IMG/VR virus record: IMGVR_UViG_3300037585_000242
Coordinates: 1-29,542 of that record
Source of the DNA: a virus
DNA length: 29,542 bases
Direction: 5' to 3' (one strand)
In this document: one piece after another, positions 2,742-28,856 of the stretch
Layout: each line of letters opens with the position of its first letter
Position numbering within the stretch: position 1 is the first letter of the stretch
Made by a program: the position numbers and the translations under genes
Notes under the pieces: model-generated
The model's database searches: none
What the model was told of the DNA's origin: nothing
Seen by the model: only the letters and a program-made list of their open reading frames with translations

Positions 2742-3126
2742 TAAGCTCATAGGACCTGTCACAAGCTTGCTGGACAAGTTTATACCTGATGCTGATACTA
2801 AGGTCAAGCTAGCGCATGAAGTCGCTACAATGGCTCAGAATCATGCTCAGGAGCTTGCTAAAGGTCAGCTTGAGGTCAACAGAGTAGAAGCAGCACACAA
2901 GTCTCTATTTGTGGCAGGATGGAGACCCTTCATTGGTTGGACCTGTGGCTTAGGTATGTTTGGTAACTTTATCACCATCCCGTTTAGCAACTTTGTTCTG
3001 GCTTTGTTTGAGTACGACATCGTAATACCTCTAGTGCCTTTAGAAACCATGATGCCTGTGCTAATGGGTATGCTTGGGTTAGGCGCTATGAGGACCTACG
3101 AGAAGAAAGCGGGGGTGTCTAAGTAA
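2734..3126 (+). CDS. GTA_holin_3TM-type holin
   Basis: A 130-residue protein using the ATG at 2734 (MIDKLIGPVTSLLDKF). The longer reading frame upstream has no good start. An N-terminal amphipathic region is followed by KSLFVAGWRPFIGW, several hydrophobic segments and the conserved end MLGLGAMRTYEKK. This is the pattern of the holin family first described for gene transfer agents (GTA_holin_3TM). It would act in the inner membrane during lysis or particle release. It overlaps the preceding membrane protein by 8 nt. Its TAA overlaps the next ATG (TAATG), which suggests translational coupling into the structural genes. Confidence 0.82.
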   Translation: MIDKLIGPVTSLLDKFIPDADTKVKLAHEVATMAQNHAQELAKGQLEVNRVEAAHKSLFVAGWRPFIGWTCGLGMFGNFITIPFSNFVLALFEYDIVIPLVPLETMMPVLMGMLGLGAMRTYEKKAGVSK

Positions 3127-5846
3127 TGTCACAAATATCGTTCCAAGAGTATAGACCCTCTAGTAGTCCTGACGGTAGAGTATCCTCATGGTTTGATGAT
3201 ATCAGGGTTGTAACTCCTGAAGACATCTTTAAGATTCTACAGCATTACTACGGAAACGACCCTACTGGGCAAGGACGTTATGATGATGAATACTATGATA
3301 TGTTGCCTCAAGAGATGCAGTGGCTTATTGAGGACAAGGAAACATTTCGAGAGCTTGCCAAGCGTTACTTAAAAGGTGATGCAACTTATGAGGAGCTAAA
3401 AGAGTTTGAGCTATCAGATTACGGGTCTGCTGGTACTCTGTTTGTAGAGTTCTACAATGAGATAATGGAGCTTTCAAAGTCTCTTGAAGAGCCTGAAGAA
3501 GTAGCTGAAGAAGTAGCTGAGGAAGAAGCTGAGGAAGAAGCTGAGGAAGAAGCTGAAGAAGAAGCTGAGGAAGAAGCTGAGGAAGAAGCTGAGGAAGAAG
3601 CTGAGGAAGAAGCTGAAGAAGAAGCTGAAGAAGTAGACGAAGAAGATGTTGTAGATATACTGGAAGACCAACCAGACGTTGCTGATGAGTTAGAAGCTGA
3701 CGCTGCTGAAGAAGAAGCTGAAGAAGAAACTCCTGCAGTTGACCCTGTAGTACCACCTGCAGTTGACCCTGTAGTACCACCTGCAGTTGACCCTGTAGTT
3801 AATCCTACTACGATGGACATCATTAACATGTCTGTCGGACTAATGGACATCGACTTAGCTTATGATTTAGACGGAGACGGTGAGATAACGTCCAATGATG
3901 CTTTACTTTTTGAGCAAGACCCTGAAGGTATGGAGGCTCAGGTAGAGTCAAACAGGGAAGCTATTGATGCTGCAGAATTACAAAATGGCAATGGAGATTT
4001 GCTAGACGGAGACGACTTTGAAGACTTTGAAGACTTTGGAGACGACGACACTGGTGGTTCAATTTTCCTAGACGTGCTTCAAGAAGTAGACTTTTCATTA
4101 GGTAAAGACATAGAGTTGCCAGACGGCACTGTCATAAACAACCAAACTCACAAACAGATAGGAACTCCGGGTTGGGCTGGAGGTATTAACGTAGCTCCTA
4201 TAGAAGTAGTTGAACCGCCTGATTCAGGCTCTGGTGGAAACCAAGAAGGAGGCTCTGGTGGAAACCAAGAAGGAGGCTCTGGTGGAAACCAAGAAGGAGG
4301 CTCTGGTGGAAACCAAGAAGGAGGCTCTGGTGGAAACCAAGAAGGAGGCTCTGGTGGAAACCAAGAAGGAGGCTCTGGTGGAAACCAAGAAGGAGGCTCT
4401 GGTGGAAACCAAGAAGGAGGCTCTGGTGGAAACCAAGAAGGAGGCTCTGGTGGAAACCAAGAAGCAGGCCTAGGCACCGAAATTGGTGATACTATAACGG
4501 ACAGTAGAGGTATTATTTGGACAAACACAGGGAACAATCCTTTTACCCCTGCAAACTTTATCATTTGGAGGGCTGGGAACCCAGACCAAGCTTTAATTGA
4601 TGAATATGAGCAACAAACTGGTCTAACATACAAAGATGGTGATACAATCAGCATTAGGGTAGGTCCCGGTCAAGACCCTGTTACTATAATAGAATCTGGT
4701 AATACAACACCTCCAGAAGTAACACCTCCGGTAGTAACACCTCCGGTAGTAACACCTCCTAATATTTCAGATTTGCTTGAAGGTGACCTTAGTTGGTTAA
4801 ATGACGTAATTAACTTCCCACCTAATAACACTACAGTACCTCCAGAGAACACTACAGTACCTCCAGATGACACTGTAGTACCTCCAGTAGTTACTACTCC
4901 AGTAGAACTCCCAGATGACTTTAGTTTAGATACTGGAGAAGTCTTTGATTTTCCAGATGACACTGTAGTACCTCCAGTAGTTACTACTCCAGTAGTTACT
5001 ACTCCAGATGACTTTAGTTTAGATACTGGAGAAGTCTTTGATTTTCCAGATGACACTGTAGTACCTCCAGTAGTAGCACCACCGACTACTACAGCACCTC
5101 CGGTAGTAGCACCTCCGGTAGTAGCACCTCCGACTGGTCTTTTTACAATCCCCGGAGAACCTTCAGAGGCTGAAATTTTAGAACTTTTAGAAAACCCTGT
5201 AGTCACTACGCCACCTCCAGTAGTCACTGCGCCACCTCCAGTAGTCACTACGCCACCTCCTACAGACTCCGGGGTTGTTTTCAACAATGGAGAACCTGTT
5301 GAGACTCCAGTAGTTACTACAGCACCTCCGACTACTACAGCACCTCCTACAAACGAAGGTAAAGAAGAAGGTACAGGAGAAGGTACTGGAGAAGGTACAG
5401 GAGAAGGTACTGGAGAAGGTACAGGAGAAGGTACAGGAGAAGGTACTGGAGAAGGTACAGGAGAAGGTACTGGAGAAGGTACTGGAGAAGGTACAGGAGA
5501 AGGTACAGGAGAAGGTACTGGAGAAGGTACAGGAGAAGGTACTGGAGAAGGTACTGGAGAAGGTACTGGAGAAGGTACTGGAGAAGGTACCGGAGATGGT
5601 GATGGTGATGGTGAAGGTACCGGAGATGGTGATGGTGAAGGAGATGGTGATGGAGATGGTGAAGGCACAGGAATGATGGCTCCTTCTGGCGGTGGTGGCT
5701 TTGGCGGCTTGAGACCAAGTCAAGGATACATGGGTGGTATTAACTACCAGTTGCCGCAGTTTGTAGGAGTACAGTACCAACCTAAAAATTATAATGTTGA
5801 GTTGGACCGTATTATCAACGAAAGTTTGTTTAAAGGAATGATTTAA
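3126..5846 (+). CDS. Giant tandem-repeat virion-associated protein
   Basis: A 906-residue, strongly acidic and mostly low-complexity protein. Residues 1-120 look folded. Next come 11 Ala-Glu-rich tetrapeptide repeats (127-170) and three PAVDPVVP units (203-226). A Ca2+-type EF-hand-like loop follows (D247, D249, D251, G252, I254, D258). Then come an Asp/Phe-rich acidic patch, ten GSGGNQEG octapeptides (368-447), a Pro/Val/Thr-rich tract with a 31-residue duplication (about 520-745) and 18 GTGE tetrapeptides (749-820). A Gly/Asp stretch precedes a folded-looking C-terminus, which starts [11 protein letters not shown] and ends [10 protein letters not shown]. It sits between the lysis genes and the tail adaptor with TAATG overlaps on both sides. 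A virion protein with a flexible spacer is likely; the function is unknown. The C-terminal anchor resembles proteins I recall from related marine phages. Confidence 0.8.
3504..3635 (+). repeat. 12-bp tandem repeat encoding AEEE/AEEV, 11 units
   Basis: Eleven in-frame units of the form GCT-GA(A/G)-GAA-GAA encode Ala-Glu-Glu-Glu, with GTA (Val) in the fourth codon of the first and last unit. The second-codon pattern is GAA, then GAG x3, GAA, GAG x4, GAA, GAA, so blocks of units look duplicated. Confidence 0.95.
3732..3803 (+). repeat. 24-bp tandem repeat encoding PAVDPVVP, 3 units
   Basis: Three nearly identical in-frame 24-bp units encode PAVDPVV followed by P or N. They lie within the repeat protein, between the Glu-rich tract and the EF-hand-like loop. 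Confidence 0.9.
4227..4466 (+). repeat. 24-bp tandem repeat encoding GSGGNQEG, 10 units
   Basis: Ten units of 24 bp, essentially identical at the nucleotide level. The last unit ends GAAGCA instead of GAAGGA, so its final residue is Ala. This near-perfect identity points to recent expansion by slippage or unequal recombination. Confidence 0.97.
4911..5074 (+). repeat. 93-bp direct repeat (31 residues) in the Pro/Val-rich tract
   Basis: Copies begin at 4911 and 5004. The first 71 bp are identical (4911-4981 and 5004-5074), starting CCAGATGACTTTAG. They encode [16 protein letters not shown] followed by TVVPPVV. A shorter related piece lies just upstream from 4864. Confidence 0.9.
5370..5585 (+). 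repeat. 12-bp tandem repeat encoding GTGE, 18 units
   Basis: Eighteen in-frame units GGT-ACN-GGA-GAA encode Gly-Thr-Gly-Glu. The Thr codon varies only between ACA and ACT. A nineteenth unit with ACC (GTGD) opens a Gly/Asp-rich stretch to about 5672. Confidence 0.97.
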
Positions 5847-25954: not shown

Positions 25955-25982
25955 ACAATAACAGACTGTGCAGCTATTGCAA
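25955..25982 (-). promoter_or_regulatory. Early promoter element A (TTGCAA-N16-TATTGT)
   Basis: On the minus strand TTGCAA (25982-25977), 16 bp and TATTGT (25960-25955) lie upstream of the Gp88-like gene. A copy with the same spacing and almost the same spacer sequence lies upstream of the neighbouring early gene. Each hexamer matches the sigma70 consensus at 4 of 6 bases; the repetition is the stronger evidence. Confidence 0.6.
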
Positions 25983-25994
25983 GCACTTTTTTAA

Positions 25995-26276
25995 TTATCT
26001 GTACGTGATGTGATTCTTGATAGACCACTTCTCGATTACTGGTTGCCCGTATTCGTCCTCGTCCAGTACAATGTATGCAACGGTTTTCTTGACGTTAGCA
26101 TAGCGCCAGCCTGAATCCTCGAAGAAAGACGATACCCATACACGGTGAGGATAGTCAACAATTGGTAACCAGCTATCGTTAGGTGTATTAGCCTCATAGT
26201 CGAATGATGTGTCGTGTGCTTTATTCTTGAACGTACCAATGACTCTTTTGATAGCGTTAGTGGGTGCGTATGACAT
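25995..26276 (-). CDS. First gene of the leftward early arm, conserved, function unknown
   Basis: A 93-residue protein starting MSYAPTNAIKRVIGTFKNKA. It includes HDTSFDYEANTPNDSWLPIV, HRVWVSSFFEDSGWRYANVK and a C-terminus DEDEYGQPVIEKWSIKNH. These segments recur in early proteins of related phages. As the first gene of the arm it may act soon after infection. AGAGG lies 9 nt before the ATG. Its leader matches that of the following Gp88-like gene. Confidence 0.72.
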   Translation of the reverse strand: MSYAPTNAIKRVIGTFKNKAHDTSFDYEANTPNDSWLPIVDYPHRVWVSSFFEDSGWRYANVKKTVAYIVLDEDEYGQPVIEKWSIKNHITYR

Positions 26277-26311: not shown

Positions 26312-26339
26312 ACAATAGCAGACTGTGTAGCCATTGCAA
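26312..26339 (-). promoter_or_regulatory. Early promoter element B (TTGCAA-N16-TATTGT)
   Basis: On the minus strand TTGCAA (26339-26334), 16 bp and TATTGT (26317-26312) lie upstream of the first leftward early gene. It is a near copy of element A: about 27 of 30 bases agree from 26312 to 26341. Confidence 0.6.
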
Positions 26340-26478
26340 GCGCAACGTGTGACTATTTTTTATAGTGATGAACAGACATAATAACTTGTGATGGTCTTGT
26401 GTTTATACTTGTGTTGTGCTTGTCGCTCTAGAGGTCCAACATAAGCTTACACACTTGTCAACCCCAGTTTCTACCCAT

Positions 26479-26493
26479 GCAAAACCCATGCCA
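26479..26493 (-). promoter_or_regulatory. Sigma54-like -24/-12 motif M1, leftward
   Basis: The minus strand reads TGGCATGGGTTTTGC followed by A. It fits TGGCAYG-N4-TTGCW. Predicted start is near 26468, directed toward the early genes. Confidence 0.5.
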
Positions 26494-26502
26494 CCTTAGA
26501 CA

Positions 26503-26517
26503 TGGCACAGATGTTGC
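26503..26517 (+). promoter_or_regulatory. Sigma54-like -24/-12 motif P1, rightward
   Basis: The plus strand reads TGGCACAGATGTTGC followed by T. It fits TGGCAY-N5-TTGCW. Predicted start is near 26529, inside motif M2. Confidence 0.5.
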
Positions 26518-26524
26518 TACCCAT

Positions 26525-26539
26525 GCAAAACCCGTGCCA
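26525..26539 (-). promoter_or_regulatory. Sigma54-like -24/-12 motif M2, leftward
   Basis: The minus strand reads TTGGCACGGGTTTTGCA including flanks, a full match to YTGGCACG-N4-TTGCW. It is the best of the five. Predicted start is near 26514, inside motif P1. Confidence 0.55.
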
Positions 26540-26565
26540 ACTCCAGGGTCAGCTAAAGTTGGCAC
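26534..26565. repeat. Perfect 9-bp inverted repeat, 14-nt loop
   Basis: GTGCCAACT (26534-26542) and AGTTGGCAC (26557-26565) are exact complements around a 14-nt centre. The arms contain the -24 elements of M2 and P2, so the two motifs face away from each other here. Confidence 0.9.
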
Positions 26566-26574
26566 ACTTGTTGC
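26560..26574 (+). promoter_or_regulatory. Sigma54-like -24/-12 motif P2, rightward
   Basis: The plus strand reads TTGGCACACTTGTTGCT including flanks. Predicted start is near 26586, inside motif M3. Confidence 0.5.
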
Positions 26575-26577
26575 TAC

Positions 26578-26592
26578 GCAAGAATCATGCCA
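26578..26592 (-). promoter_or_regulatory. Sigma54-like -24/-12 motif M3, leftward
   Basis: The minus strand reads TTGGCATGATTCTTGCG including flanks. It fits TGGCAYG-N4-TTGC, with G instead of A/T after TTGC. Predicted start is near 26567, inside motif P2. Confidence 0.45.
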
Positions 26593-26764
26593 ATTGTTGG
26601 ACAAATGTTGGACGGGGGGAGGGGGTTGCCTTCTGTTGTTAATTGTAGTAGCCACTGGTGCACAAAATAGGTGAAAATTAGGAATATTACCCCGTGTATT
26701 AACGACAGTAACTACTTGTTTTACCTTGTATTACTACAACTGACCACCCACAGCCATAAATAGC

Positions 26765-26793
26765 TTGACTTCTGTGAATACTTGTGTTATACT
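26765..26793 (+). promoter_or_regulatory. Sigma70-like promoter for the packaging arm
   Basis: TTGACT (26765-26770), a 17-bp spacer and TATACT (26788-26793) match the consensus hexamers at 5 of 6 bases each, with ideal spacing. Transcription would start near 26800, about 22 nt before the small terminase gene. Confidence 0.7.
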
Positions 26794-26821: not shown

Positions 26822-27262
26822 ATGACAACTGAATCAAAGGTTGGGCCTCCAGAAATTAAAAAGAGGGGCCGTGGCAGACCCCGGAAGTCAGAAGTAGCCG
26901 CTGTAAAACCCGGTAACAAGGGTAAGGTGGGTAGACCCAAAGGTGACGCTGCTATTATAAACGAGTACAAAGCTCGTATGTTGGCTTCTCCTAAGTCAAG
27001 AAAGGTCCTAGAGACTATTTTTGATGCAGCTTTAGACCACGACCATAAGAATCAGGCTTCTGCATGGAAGCTAATCATGGACCGTATGTTGCCAGTAGGT
27101 GCTTTTGAAAGAGAAGTTGCTGCGGCCGGTGGCAAAAGTGCTATACAGATTAACATCACTGGTGTTGGTACTGTAGATGTAAACGATGCAGCCCATAGTG
27201 GTGCTGAGGTCAGTGGTGACGAAGCTTCCATAATTGAAGGAGAAGTAGTTGATCAATCTTGA
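26822..27262 (+). CDS. Putative small terminase subunit with AT-hook-like N-terminus
   Basis: A 146-residue protein from the ATG at 26822 (MTTESKVGPPEIKKRGRGRP). An in-frame TTG at 26798 lies at the predicted transcription start and is rejected. Residues 15-22 (RGRGRPRK) and 35-40 (KVGRPK) resemble AT-hooks. The middle is helical (INEYKARMLASPKSRKVLET, later KLIMDRMLPVGAFE). The C-terminus is acidic. Its position just before the M15 peptidase and large terminase supports a DNA-recognition role in packaging. The family match is by pattern and context only. The ribosome site (GGGA, 11 nt upstream) is weak. Confidence 0.6.
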   Translation: MTTESKVGPPEIKKRGRGRPRKSEVAAVKPGNKGKVGRPKGDAAIINEYKARMLASPKSRKVLETIFDAALDHDHKNQASAWKLIMDRMLPVGAFEREVAAAGGKSAIQINITGVGTVDVNDAAHSGAEVSGDEASIIEGEVVDQS

Positions 27263-27605: not shown

Positions 27606-28856
27606 GTGGACCTAGACATCCAGTTACTGCCGTGGCAGCAAGAGGTCTGGGCTGACGACACTAGATTCAAGATAGTCGCAGCAGGTAGACGTACAGGTAA
27701 ATCCAGACTTGCTGCTTGGCTGCTCATTGTAAACGCTCTGCAGACTGAACGTGGACAAGTGTTCTACGTAGCCCCTACACAGGGTCAGGCCAGAGACATC
27801 ATGTGGCAGACGTTGTTGGAACTAGGCAACCCTGTGATTACAGGTAGCCACATTAATAATCTACAGATTAAGTTAGTCAACGGTGCAACCATCAGTCTCA
27901 AAGGTGCCGACAGGCCAGAGACTATGCGTGGTGTGTCACTGAAGTTCTTGGTGTTGGACGAGTACGCAGACATGAAGCCTGACGTATTTGAGCAGATACT
28001 TAGACCTGCTTTGGCTGACCAAAAGGGTTGTGCAATGTTCATAGGTACGCCTATGGGTCGCAACCACTTCTATGAACTCTACAAATATGCAGACTTAGGT
28101 GACGATGAAACTTATAAAGCTTGGCACTTTACTTCCTATGATAACCCAATACTGGACCCAAATGAAATTGACACTGCAAAGAAGTCTATGTCGAGCTATG
28201 CGTTTCGTCAAGAGTTTATGGCTTCGTTTGAAGCTCGTGGGTCAGAAATGTTTAAAGAGGACTGGGTAAAGTTTGACGAAGAAGCTTGTGACGAAGGTGA
28301 CTACTACATAGCTATTGACTTAGCAGGTTTTGAAGAAGTCAACAAGAAGCGTACTAAAAATGCTAAACTTGACGAGACAGCAATAGCAGTAGTCAAAGTA
28401 AACCCCAATGGCTGGTACGTGGAAAACATCATACACGGACGTTGGACCTTAGACGAAACTGCAGCTAAAATCTTTCAGGCTGTCAGAGACTACAAACCAG
28501 TTAGCGTAGGTATTGAGAAGGGTATAGCGAAGCAGGCAGTGATGTCTCCCCTACTGGACCTACAGAGACGCTACGGGACGTTCTTCAGAGTTGAGGAGTT
28601 GACCCACGGTAACAAGAAGAAGACTGACAGGGTGATGTGGGCGTTACAGGGCAGGTTTGAGAACGGCTTTGTGACACTCAGTAGAGGAGAGTGGAACACT
28701 AGGTTCTTGGACCAACTGTTTCAATTCCCAGACCCACTAACTCACGACGACTTGGTTGACGCTTTAGCTTACGTAGACCAACTAGCAAACGTAGCCTATG
28801 ACTATGACTACGAAATTGACGACCATGAAATTTTAGACGTAGTAGCAGGATACTAA
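27606..28856 (+). CDS. Large terminase subunit
   Basis: A 416-residue packaging motor. The ATPase domain has Walker A AAGRRTGKS (K32, S33), Walker B FLVLDEYAD (D118, E119) and the coupling segment IGTPMG (146-151). The nuclease domain has D238 (YYIAIDLAG), E304 (VGIEKG) and the HDDLVDALAY segment (D382/D385). It translocates DNA into the prohead and cuts it. The start is GTG (27606), as no in-frame ATG lies nearby; the ribosome site is weak. It follows the peptidase stop by 3 nt. Confidence 0.95.
   Translation: MDLDIQLLPWQQEVWADDTRFKIVAAGRRTGKSRLAAWLLIVNALQTERGQVFYVAPTQGQARDIMWQTLLELGNPVITGSHINNLQIKLVNGATISLKGADRPETMRGVSLKFLVLDEYADMKPDVFEQILRPALADQKGCAMFIGTPMGRNHFYELYKYADLGDDETYKAWHFTSYDNPILDPNEIDTAKKSMSSYAFRQEFMASFEARGSEMFKEDWVKFDEEACDEGDYYIAIDLAGFEEVNKKRTKNAKLDETAIAVVKVNPNGWYVENIIHGRWTLDETAAKIFQAVRDYKPVSVGIEKGIAKQAVMSPLLDLQRRYGTFFRVEELTHGNKKKTDRVMWALQGRFENGFVTLSRGEWNTRFLDQLFQFPDPLTHDDLVDALAYVDQLANVAYDYDYEIDDHEILDVVAGY

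Follow-up and report, generated by a model that had tools for sequence, protein, structure and literature searches.

Clustered sigma54-type sites in the divergent gap of an uncultured marine phage and in other uncultured viruses

The divergent gap and its five sites

The window, which here means the whole 29,542-bp stretch of DNA that was analysed, is a fragment from an uncultured marine phage. The leftward arm contains a primase-helicase, PolA, and other DNA-metabolism genes; the rightward arm contains a terS-like ORF, a peptidase/endolysin, and terL. The two arms are separated by a divergent gap of about 545 bp, which runs from the leftward gene start at 26276 to the start of the terS-like ORF at 26822. 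An earlier, sequence-only reading had placed a cluster of sigma54-type sites between an early arm (left) and a packaging arm (right), and the gene content of the arms agrees with this. In the window, sites of either direction face a gene across the gap. An ORF of 906 aa at 3126-5846 consists mostly of simple repeats. The features of the gap and its neighbours are listed below.

25995-26276, minus strand: first gene of the leftward arm, phrog_23785 (no assigned function)
26312-26339, minus strand: sigma70-like extended -10 promoter (TTGCAA...TGCTATTGT) upstream of the first leftward gene, repeated at 25955-25982
26432-26464, no strand assigned: left border of the variable array zone, GGTCCAACATAAG...CACACTTGTCAACCCC, conserved in both kinds of relatives, those with sigma54 arrays and those with DnaA-box arrays
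26479-26493, minus strand (leftward): sigma54-type site M1, TGGCATGGGTTTTGC; 18.6 bits, 98th percentile of E. coli sigma54 sites
26503-26517, plus strand (rightward): sigma54-type site P1, TGGCACAGATGTTGC; 17.3 bits, 87th percentile
26525-26539, minus strand (leftward): sigma54-type site M2, TGGCACGGGTTTTGC, full extended consensus; 20.1 bits, 100th percentile
26560-26574, plus strand (rightward): sigma54-type site P2, TGGCACACTTGTTGC; 17.4 bits, 88th percentile
26578-26592, minus strand (leftward): sigma54-type site M3, TGGCATGATTCTTGC; 17.6 bits, 89th percentile
26613-26625, plus strand: G-rich tract CGGGGGGAGGGGG, which forms the conserved right border and lies some 150 bp upstream of the sigma70 promoter
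26660-26693, no strand assigned: conserved A+T-rich block CACAAAATAGGTGAAAATTAGG..., seen in the sequence and in relatives
26765-26793, plus strand: sigma70-type promoter TTGACT-N17-TATACT of the rightward arm, also in relatives
26822-27262, plus strand: terS-like ORF that opens the rightward arm and has AT-hook-like GRGRPRK motifs
27606-28856, plus strand: terminase large subunit (terL), phrog_2, E 4.5e-44

The terS-like ORF (26822-27262) had no PHROG match, and its position suggests that it may encode the terminase small subunit. On the minus strand, the repeat TTGCAATrGCTrCACAGTCTGyTATTGT has two exact matches (25955-25982 and 26312-26339), with none expected; the two copies are probably extended -10 sigma70 promoters, each before a leftward gene. 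The A+T-rich block might serve as an unwinding element. The G-rich tract could be a cohesive-end, origin, or barrier element; its distance to the sigma70 promoter is 150-156 bp in 25/26 of the relatives with the tract, and 193 bp in the remaining one (L012).

A pattern scan of both strands found five exact matches to TGGCAY-N5-TTGC at 26479-26592, and zero elsewhere in the 29,542 bp. All five had been reported by the sequence-only reading with the same coordinates and strands, and its remark that the window holds no further copy was confirmed. Its estimate of about 0.1 expected sites is close to the mean of 0.08 matches (maximum 1) in dinucleotide shuffles of the window. A weight-matrix scan, which it had proposed as a check, was run with a matrix of the 108 intergenic and intragenic-sense sigma54 motifs from an E. 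coli ChIP-seq study (PMC4591121, Tables 1 and 2), whose 27 antisense motifs were excluded. With this matrix, the five sites scored 17.3-20.1 bits, in the range of bound E. coli sites (87th-100th percentile); the next-best site of the window scored 12.4 bits (17th percentile). The best match is M2, which in its extended form (26540-26524, TTGGCACGGGTTTTGCA) has the full extended consensus, as had been claimed.

M1 and M2 lie within a 30-nt direct repeat of 90% identity. The duplication suggested earlier therefore holds for these two sites, and it accounts for only part of the array. Simple arithmetic on the sequence, with starts about 12 nt past the GC, also bears out the claim that each predicted start of the convergent pairs P1/M2 and P2/M3 falls inside the partner site. 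The repeat spacing in the array is 46 and 53 bp. A coding origin was rejected, because these distances are not multiples of three; the overlapping 65-aa ORFs look incidental.

Searches by DNA and by the terS-like protein identified no cultured near relative of the window, and terL gave at best 35-40% identity. Relatives of the primase-helicase infect Pelagibacter, Roseobacter, and others, with identities of only 44-47%. Among 754 genomes sampled from two classes, terL had a single match, of 49%, in the class of an Oceanicoccus MAG, which was rejected as a host clue because it is too distant. Cultured relatives of three other array contigs were also sought, and none was found.

Conservation, recurrence, and packing of the arrays

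Close relatives of the window have 7-9 sigma54-type sites each in the same divergent gap. The conservation of the GG and GC positions relative to the spacers, another check proposed by the sequence-only reading, was analysed in the relatives L006-L009, which were fetched by terminase identity and not by motif, and which have nine homologous sites each. Variable columns numbered 0/81 in TGGCA/TTGC, 13/36 in the N4 spacer, and 22/96 in the flanks (recognition versus N4 spacer, Fisher p 4e-8). This pattern favours sigma54 as the likely reader over a factor that reads the site along its whole length. Another figure, 0/648 variable columns, was set aside as circular because its loci had been picked by their intact sites; the 0/81 figure uses loci chosen by terL.

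Arrays of near-perfect sigma54-type sites recur in many unrelated viruses, mostly in a single non-coding gap. Pattern scans of the viral collections, whose counts are lower bounds, found at least 120 face-to-face pairs and at least 120 tandem pairs; the controls gave 81 pairs for N6 spacing and 19 for the reversed pattern. Long open frames contained 31/212 of the real pairs (among the matches listed), versus 64/81 of the N6 pairs and 16/19 of the reversed pairs, so the controls are mostly chance pairs in coding sequence. Clusters of five or more sites were found at no fewer than 39 real loci, versus 0 for N6 and 0 for the reversed pattern. In array-bearing whole contigs (5-94 kb), the sites mostly form one cluster per contig. 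Among the matches listed, 195 loci have at least three strict sites; in 100 of them there is a terL that belongs to the clustered family of the window, and in 80 a terS-like homologue, lying 600 bp or less from the array in 78 of these (gene calls in the scanned loci were mechanical). Other arrays adjoin unrelated terminases or replication genes, including helicase or primase genes. The earlier opinion that such a use of sigma54 would be unusual for a lytic phage was too narrow, since the arrays are common in uncultured viral contigs.

Two viral contigs, L136 (2055-6025) and L294 (4706-6803), have pairs of sigma54-type sites (TGGCAY....ATTTGC) scattered over several kb, unlike the single clusters elsewhere; these may be dispersed promoters or mobile repeats. 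A Chitinophagales MAG contig (G050:C75:296976-363343, with locus L402) has about 30 mostly same-strand sigma54-type sites in 66 kb, and is perhaps a prophage or a dense sigma54 regulon.

Triple-tandem stretches were found at least 120 times in viral contigs versus 8 times in 257 Gb of bacterial and archaeal genomes. RpoN is encoded in 8/8 of the genomes with triple arrays, whose lineages include Bacteroidota, Gemmatimonadota, and Proteobacteria; this is modest evidence, because RpoN is common in bacteria and the binning of phage contigs in MAGs is uncertain. The occurrence of such genomes in several phyla is consistent with a factor that has the same consensus in different phyla. In viral contigs outside the terminase group, 488 sites were compared with the E. 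coli sigma54 sites at the columns that the search had left free, and the column preferences correlate (r 0.74, reached by 0.0001 of permutations; four spacer columns alone, r 0.69, 0.006). These viral sites have a pyrimidine before the site, G or A at position 7, and A/T after it, as in sigma54 sites. Sigma54-type recognition of the putative sites in the window is well supported, because the matrix scores, the fixed recognition bases with free spacers, and the matching column preferences all point to it.

The sites are closely packed. Among the matches listed, tandem start-to-start distances fall 213 times at 25-29 bp, 0 times at 20-24 bp, 13 times at 30-34 bp, and 54 times at 35-39 bp. The empty 20-24 bp class is not a search artefact, since the scans admitted 20-50 bp, and the 25-29 bp rule holds in the terminase group and in the remaining loci, each taken separately. 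Face-to-face pairs peak at 18-22 bp and back-to-back pairs at 20-25 bp. The open complex of sigma54 occupies some 55 bp of DNA, and closed complexes are much shorter; neighbours 25-29 bp apart therefore cannot fire together. In unrelated phages, array direction appears unrelated to gene direction: in gaps between same-direction genes, 6 arrays point with the downstream gene and 7 against it, and 6/33 arrays lie in convergent gaps, with no gene start to drive. The sequence-only reading had proposed a direction switch driven by host sigma54. Its sigma54-type recognition is well supported, but the promoter-driven switch is not, in view of this packing, these orientations, and the sigma70-like promoters that both arms possess.

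Related phages have a different array at the same place. In eight loci (L015, L019, L020, L023, L027, L028, L029, and L038), the gap upstream of terS contains DnaA boxes (TGTGGATAA), 9-12 in most of them. The flanks on both sides of the gap are common to relatives with sigma54 arrays and relatives with DnaA arrays. DnaA boxes occur at 5.1 per kb in the gap versus 0.17 elsewhere, 30 times denser (29 loci); no DnaA box is present in the window's gap. At least three sigma54 sites are present in 17 of the 55 gaps compared among terL relatives, and at least three DnaA boxes in 12; 2 gaps have both. No p-value is claimed for these counts, because the relatives are not independent. A strict mutual exclusion of the two arrays was rejected on account of these two gaps. 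In L053 and L059, the gap upstream of terS has neither array and contains three copies of a third repeat type, AGAATGCCC.

A proposed capture of sigma54 and its rivals

The region might be an array of genuine host sigma54 (RpoN) sites, which captures inactive RNA polymerase-sigma54 and works through occupancy. We prefer this reading, which is the simplest, and give it about an even chance. Host RNA polymerase-sigma54 would bind the sites as a stable inactive closed complex, several sites would be occupied simultaneously on phage DNA, and the array would capture or titrate the scarce sigma54 holoenzyme of the host. It would perhaps also insulate the two arms from each other, which would be transcribed from their own sigma70-type promoters and not from the array. 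Titration of sigma54 by the arrays is plausible, since the factor is scarce (roughly a hundred copies in an E. coli cell) and the phage genomes, once replicated, would present hundreds of sites. In vivo, sigma54 is mostly inactive holoenzyme, and sigma54 alone binds more weakly than the holoenzyme (PMC4591121). The features of the array suggest capture of host sigma54 rather than merely service as an ordinary promoter. The presence of RpoN in the host, the binding of sigma54 in vivo, and a function in capture rather than initiation are inferences. Decoy, occupancy-based regulator, and part of an origin are each possible, unproven roles of the array. A phage-encoded RpoN-like DNA-binding domain was rejected as the array reader, since Sigma54_DBD was absent from 45 array-family contigs in a search that was positive in four control genomes.

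The shared location of two host-factor arrays suits an exchangeable capture slot or an origin. It is possible, although doubtful, that in phages of this group the gap between divergent arms is an exchangeable 'host-factor slot', in which sigma54 arrays of some lineages and DnaA arrays of others capture a host transcription or replication factor during infection, and that unrelated viruses whose hosts have rpoN acquired sigma54 arrays several times.

A weaker form of the direction switch would make the region a regulatory promoter cluster, in which host sigma54 and a host enhancer-binding protein start transcription, mainly into the leftward arm, and phage gene expression is timed to the nitrogen, motility, or envelope state of the host. 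It parallels the CtrA 'lytic deferment' model, and phage CtrA-site clusters control transcription (PMC9437464). The perfect -24/-12 elements of the array suit promoters, as does the layout in the window's family: 79/79 placeable arrays are upstream of terS, 312 sites are directed away from terS versus 94 toward it, and 43/50 oriented arrays are in divergent gaps. However, both arms already have sigma70-type promoters, neighbouring sites are nearer than an open complex, and no conserved activator-site dyad was seen in the gap by eye. In unrelated phages, the two array orientations relative to the next gene are about equally frequent, and convergent gaps contain some of the arrays. A promoter cluster is considered rather unlikely. 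Sigma54 capture has difficulties as well: a pure sponge has no need of the 312 versus 94 direction bias, which shared descent could give, and even closed complexes of the full holoenzyme would be crowded at 25-29 bp.

The array might instead consist of replication-origin iterons, which bind a phage or host initiator, or at which sigma54 holoenzyme gives a primer transcript in a T7-like replicon without its own RNA polymerase. At least eight sister phages have DnaA boxes in the same gap, and a conserved A+T-rich block and G-tract lie beside the array. The cumulative GC skew has its minimum near 26 kb, though gene direction alone explains that. The T7-like primase-helicase and PolA are present with no RNA_pol match, and a search of 15 records, repeated with P-SSP7 as a working positive control, found no phage RNA polymerase. 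Against this, the sigma54-like preferences are seen again in viruses whose replication genes or terminases differ, which makes a lineage-specific initiator unlikely, and the DnaA arrays could equally be DnaA decoys. We regard an origin as improbable. The packaging (pac/cos) region, bound by the terminase small subunit, would account for the fixed G-rich tract and for the terminase genes that adjoin arrays in the window's family and in several unrelated families. But the same motif is found beside different terminase families, other arrays adjoin helicase or primase genes, and long contigs of the family run across the array instead of ending there; this explanation is very unlikely. As for chance with duplication, hairpins, or coding repeats, the M1/M2 duplication exists and the convergent pairs can form imperfect hairpins. 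This would have to explain five sites where 0.08 are expected, and the N6 and reversed controls are mostly coding and have no clusters of five or more sites. It is already contradicted by the conservation pattern, in which the recognition bases are fixed among relatives while the spacers drift, and it is barely credible. Hairpin, cruciform, or RNA structure was rejected as the feature that unites the arrays, because such hairpins cannot form in the many arrays with tandem sites only.

Comparison with known systems

Phages hijack host sigma70 and encode anti-sigma factors, and sigma54 is the factor for nitrogen, motility, and envelope-stress genes. A search of the open-access literature, which found the CtrA clusters, found no report of phage DNA arrays aimed at sigma54. 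In Salmonella, phages infect differently once RpoN is lost, for other reasons (PMC8744999). Provided that they bind sigma54, the sites would represent a new device for takeover or sensing, widespread among uncultured viruses, and a sequence signature that predicts hosts with RpoN.

The sites resemble bacterial sigma54 -24/-12 promoters (Bonocora et al. 2015, PMC4591121; consensus TGGCAC-N5-7-TTGCT, PMC12316311) in their recognition bases and N5 spacing, in the pyrimidine before and A/T after the site, and in soft spacer preferences. However, the E. coli sites of that study (PMC4591121) are spread over the chromosome, whereas a phage array brings together 3-10 sites, either face to face or at distances of 25-29 bp. 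DnaA-box clusters, either oriC-type or datA-type titration loci, are likewise host-factor arrays, and sister phages mostly have 9-12 boxes in the same gap; the factor is different, and the window's gap is without a DnaA box. The nearest precedent is the CtrA-site clusters in phages of Alphaproteobacteria ('lytic deferment', Mascolo et al. 2022, PMC9437464). In both cases, sites for a host regulator are crowded into one large intergenic gap and have evolved independently in unrelated phages; the CtrA clusters of some phages lie between divergent gene blocks, as here (PMC9437464). A high density of sites in one intergenic region, typical of CtrA clusters, was found in the window and in most array-bearing contigs. 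CtrA is a response regulator, whereas the factor here would be a sigma subunit, sigma54. The sigma54 arrays also differ in that they span several host phyla, have a fixed minimum packing, and are not gene-directed in unrelated phages.
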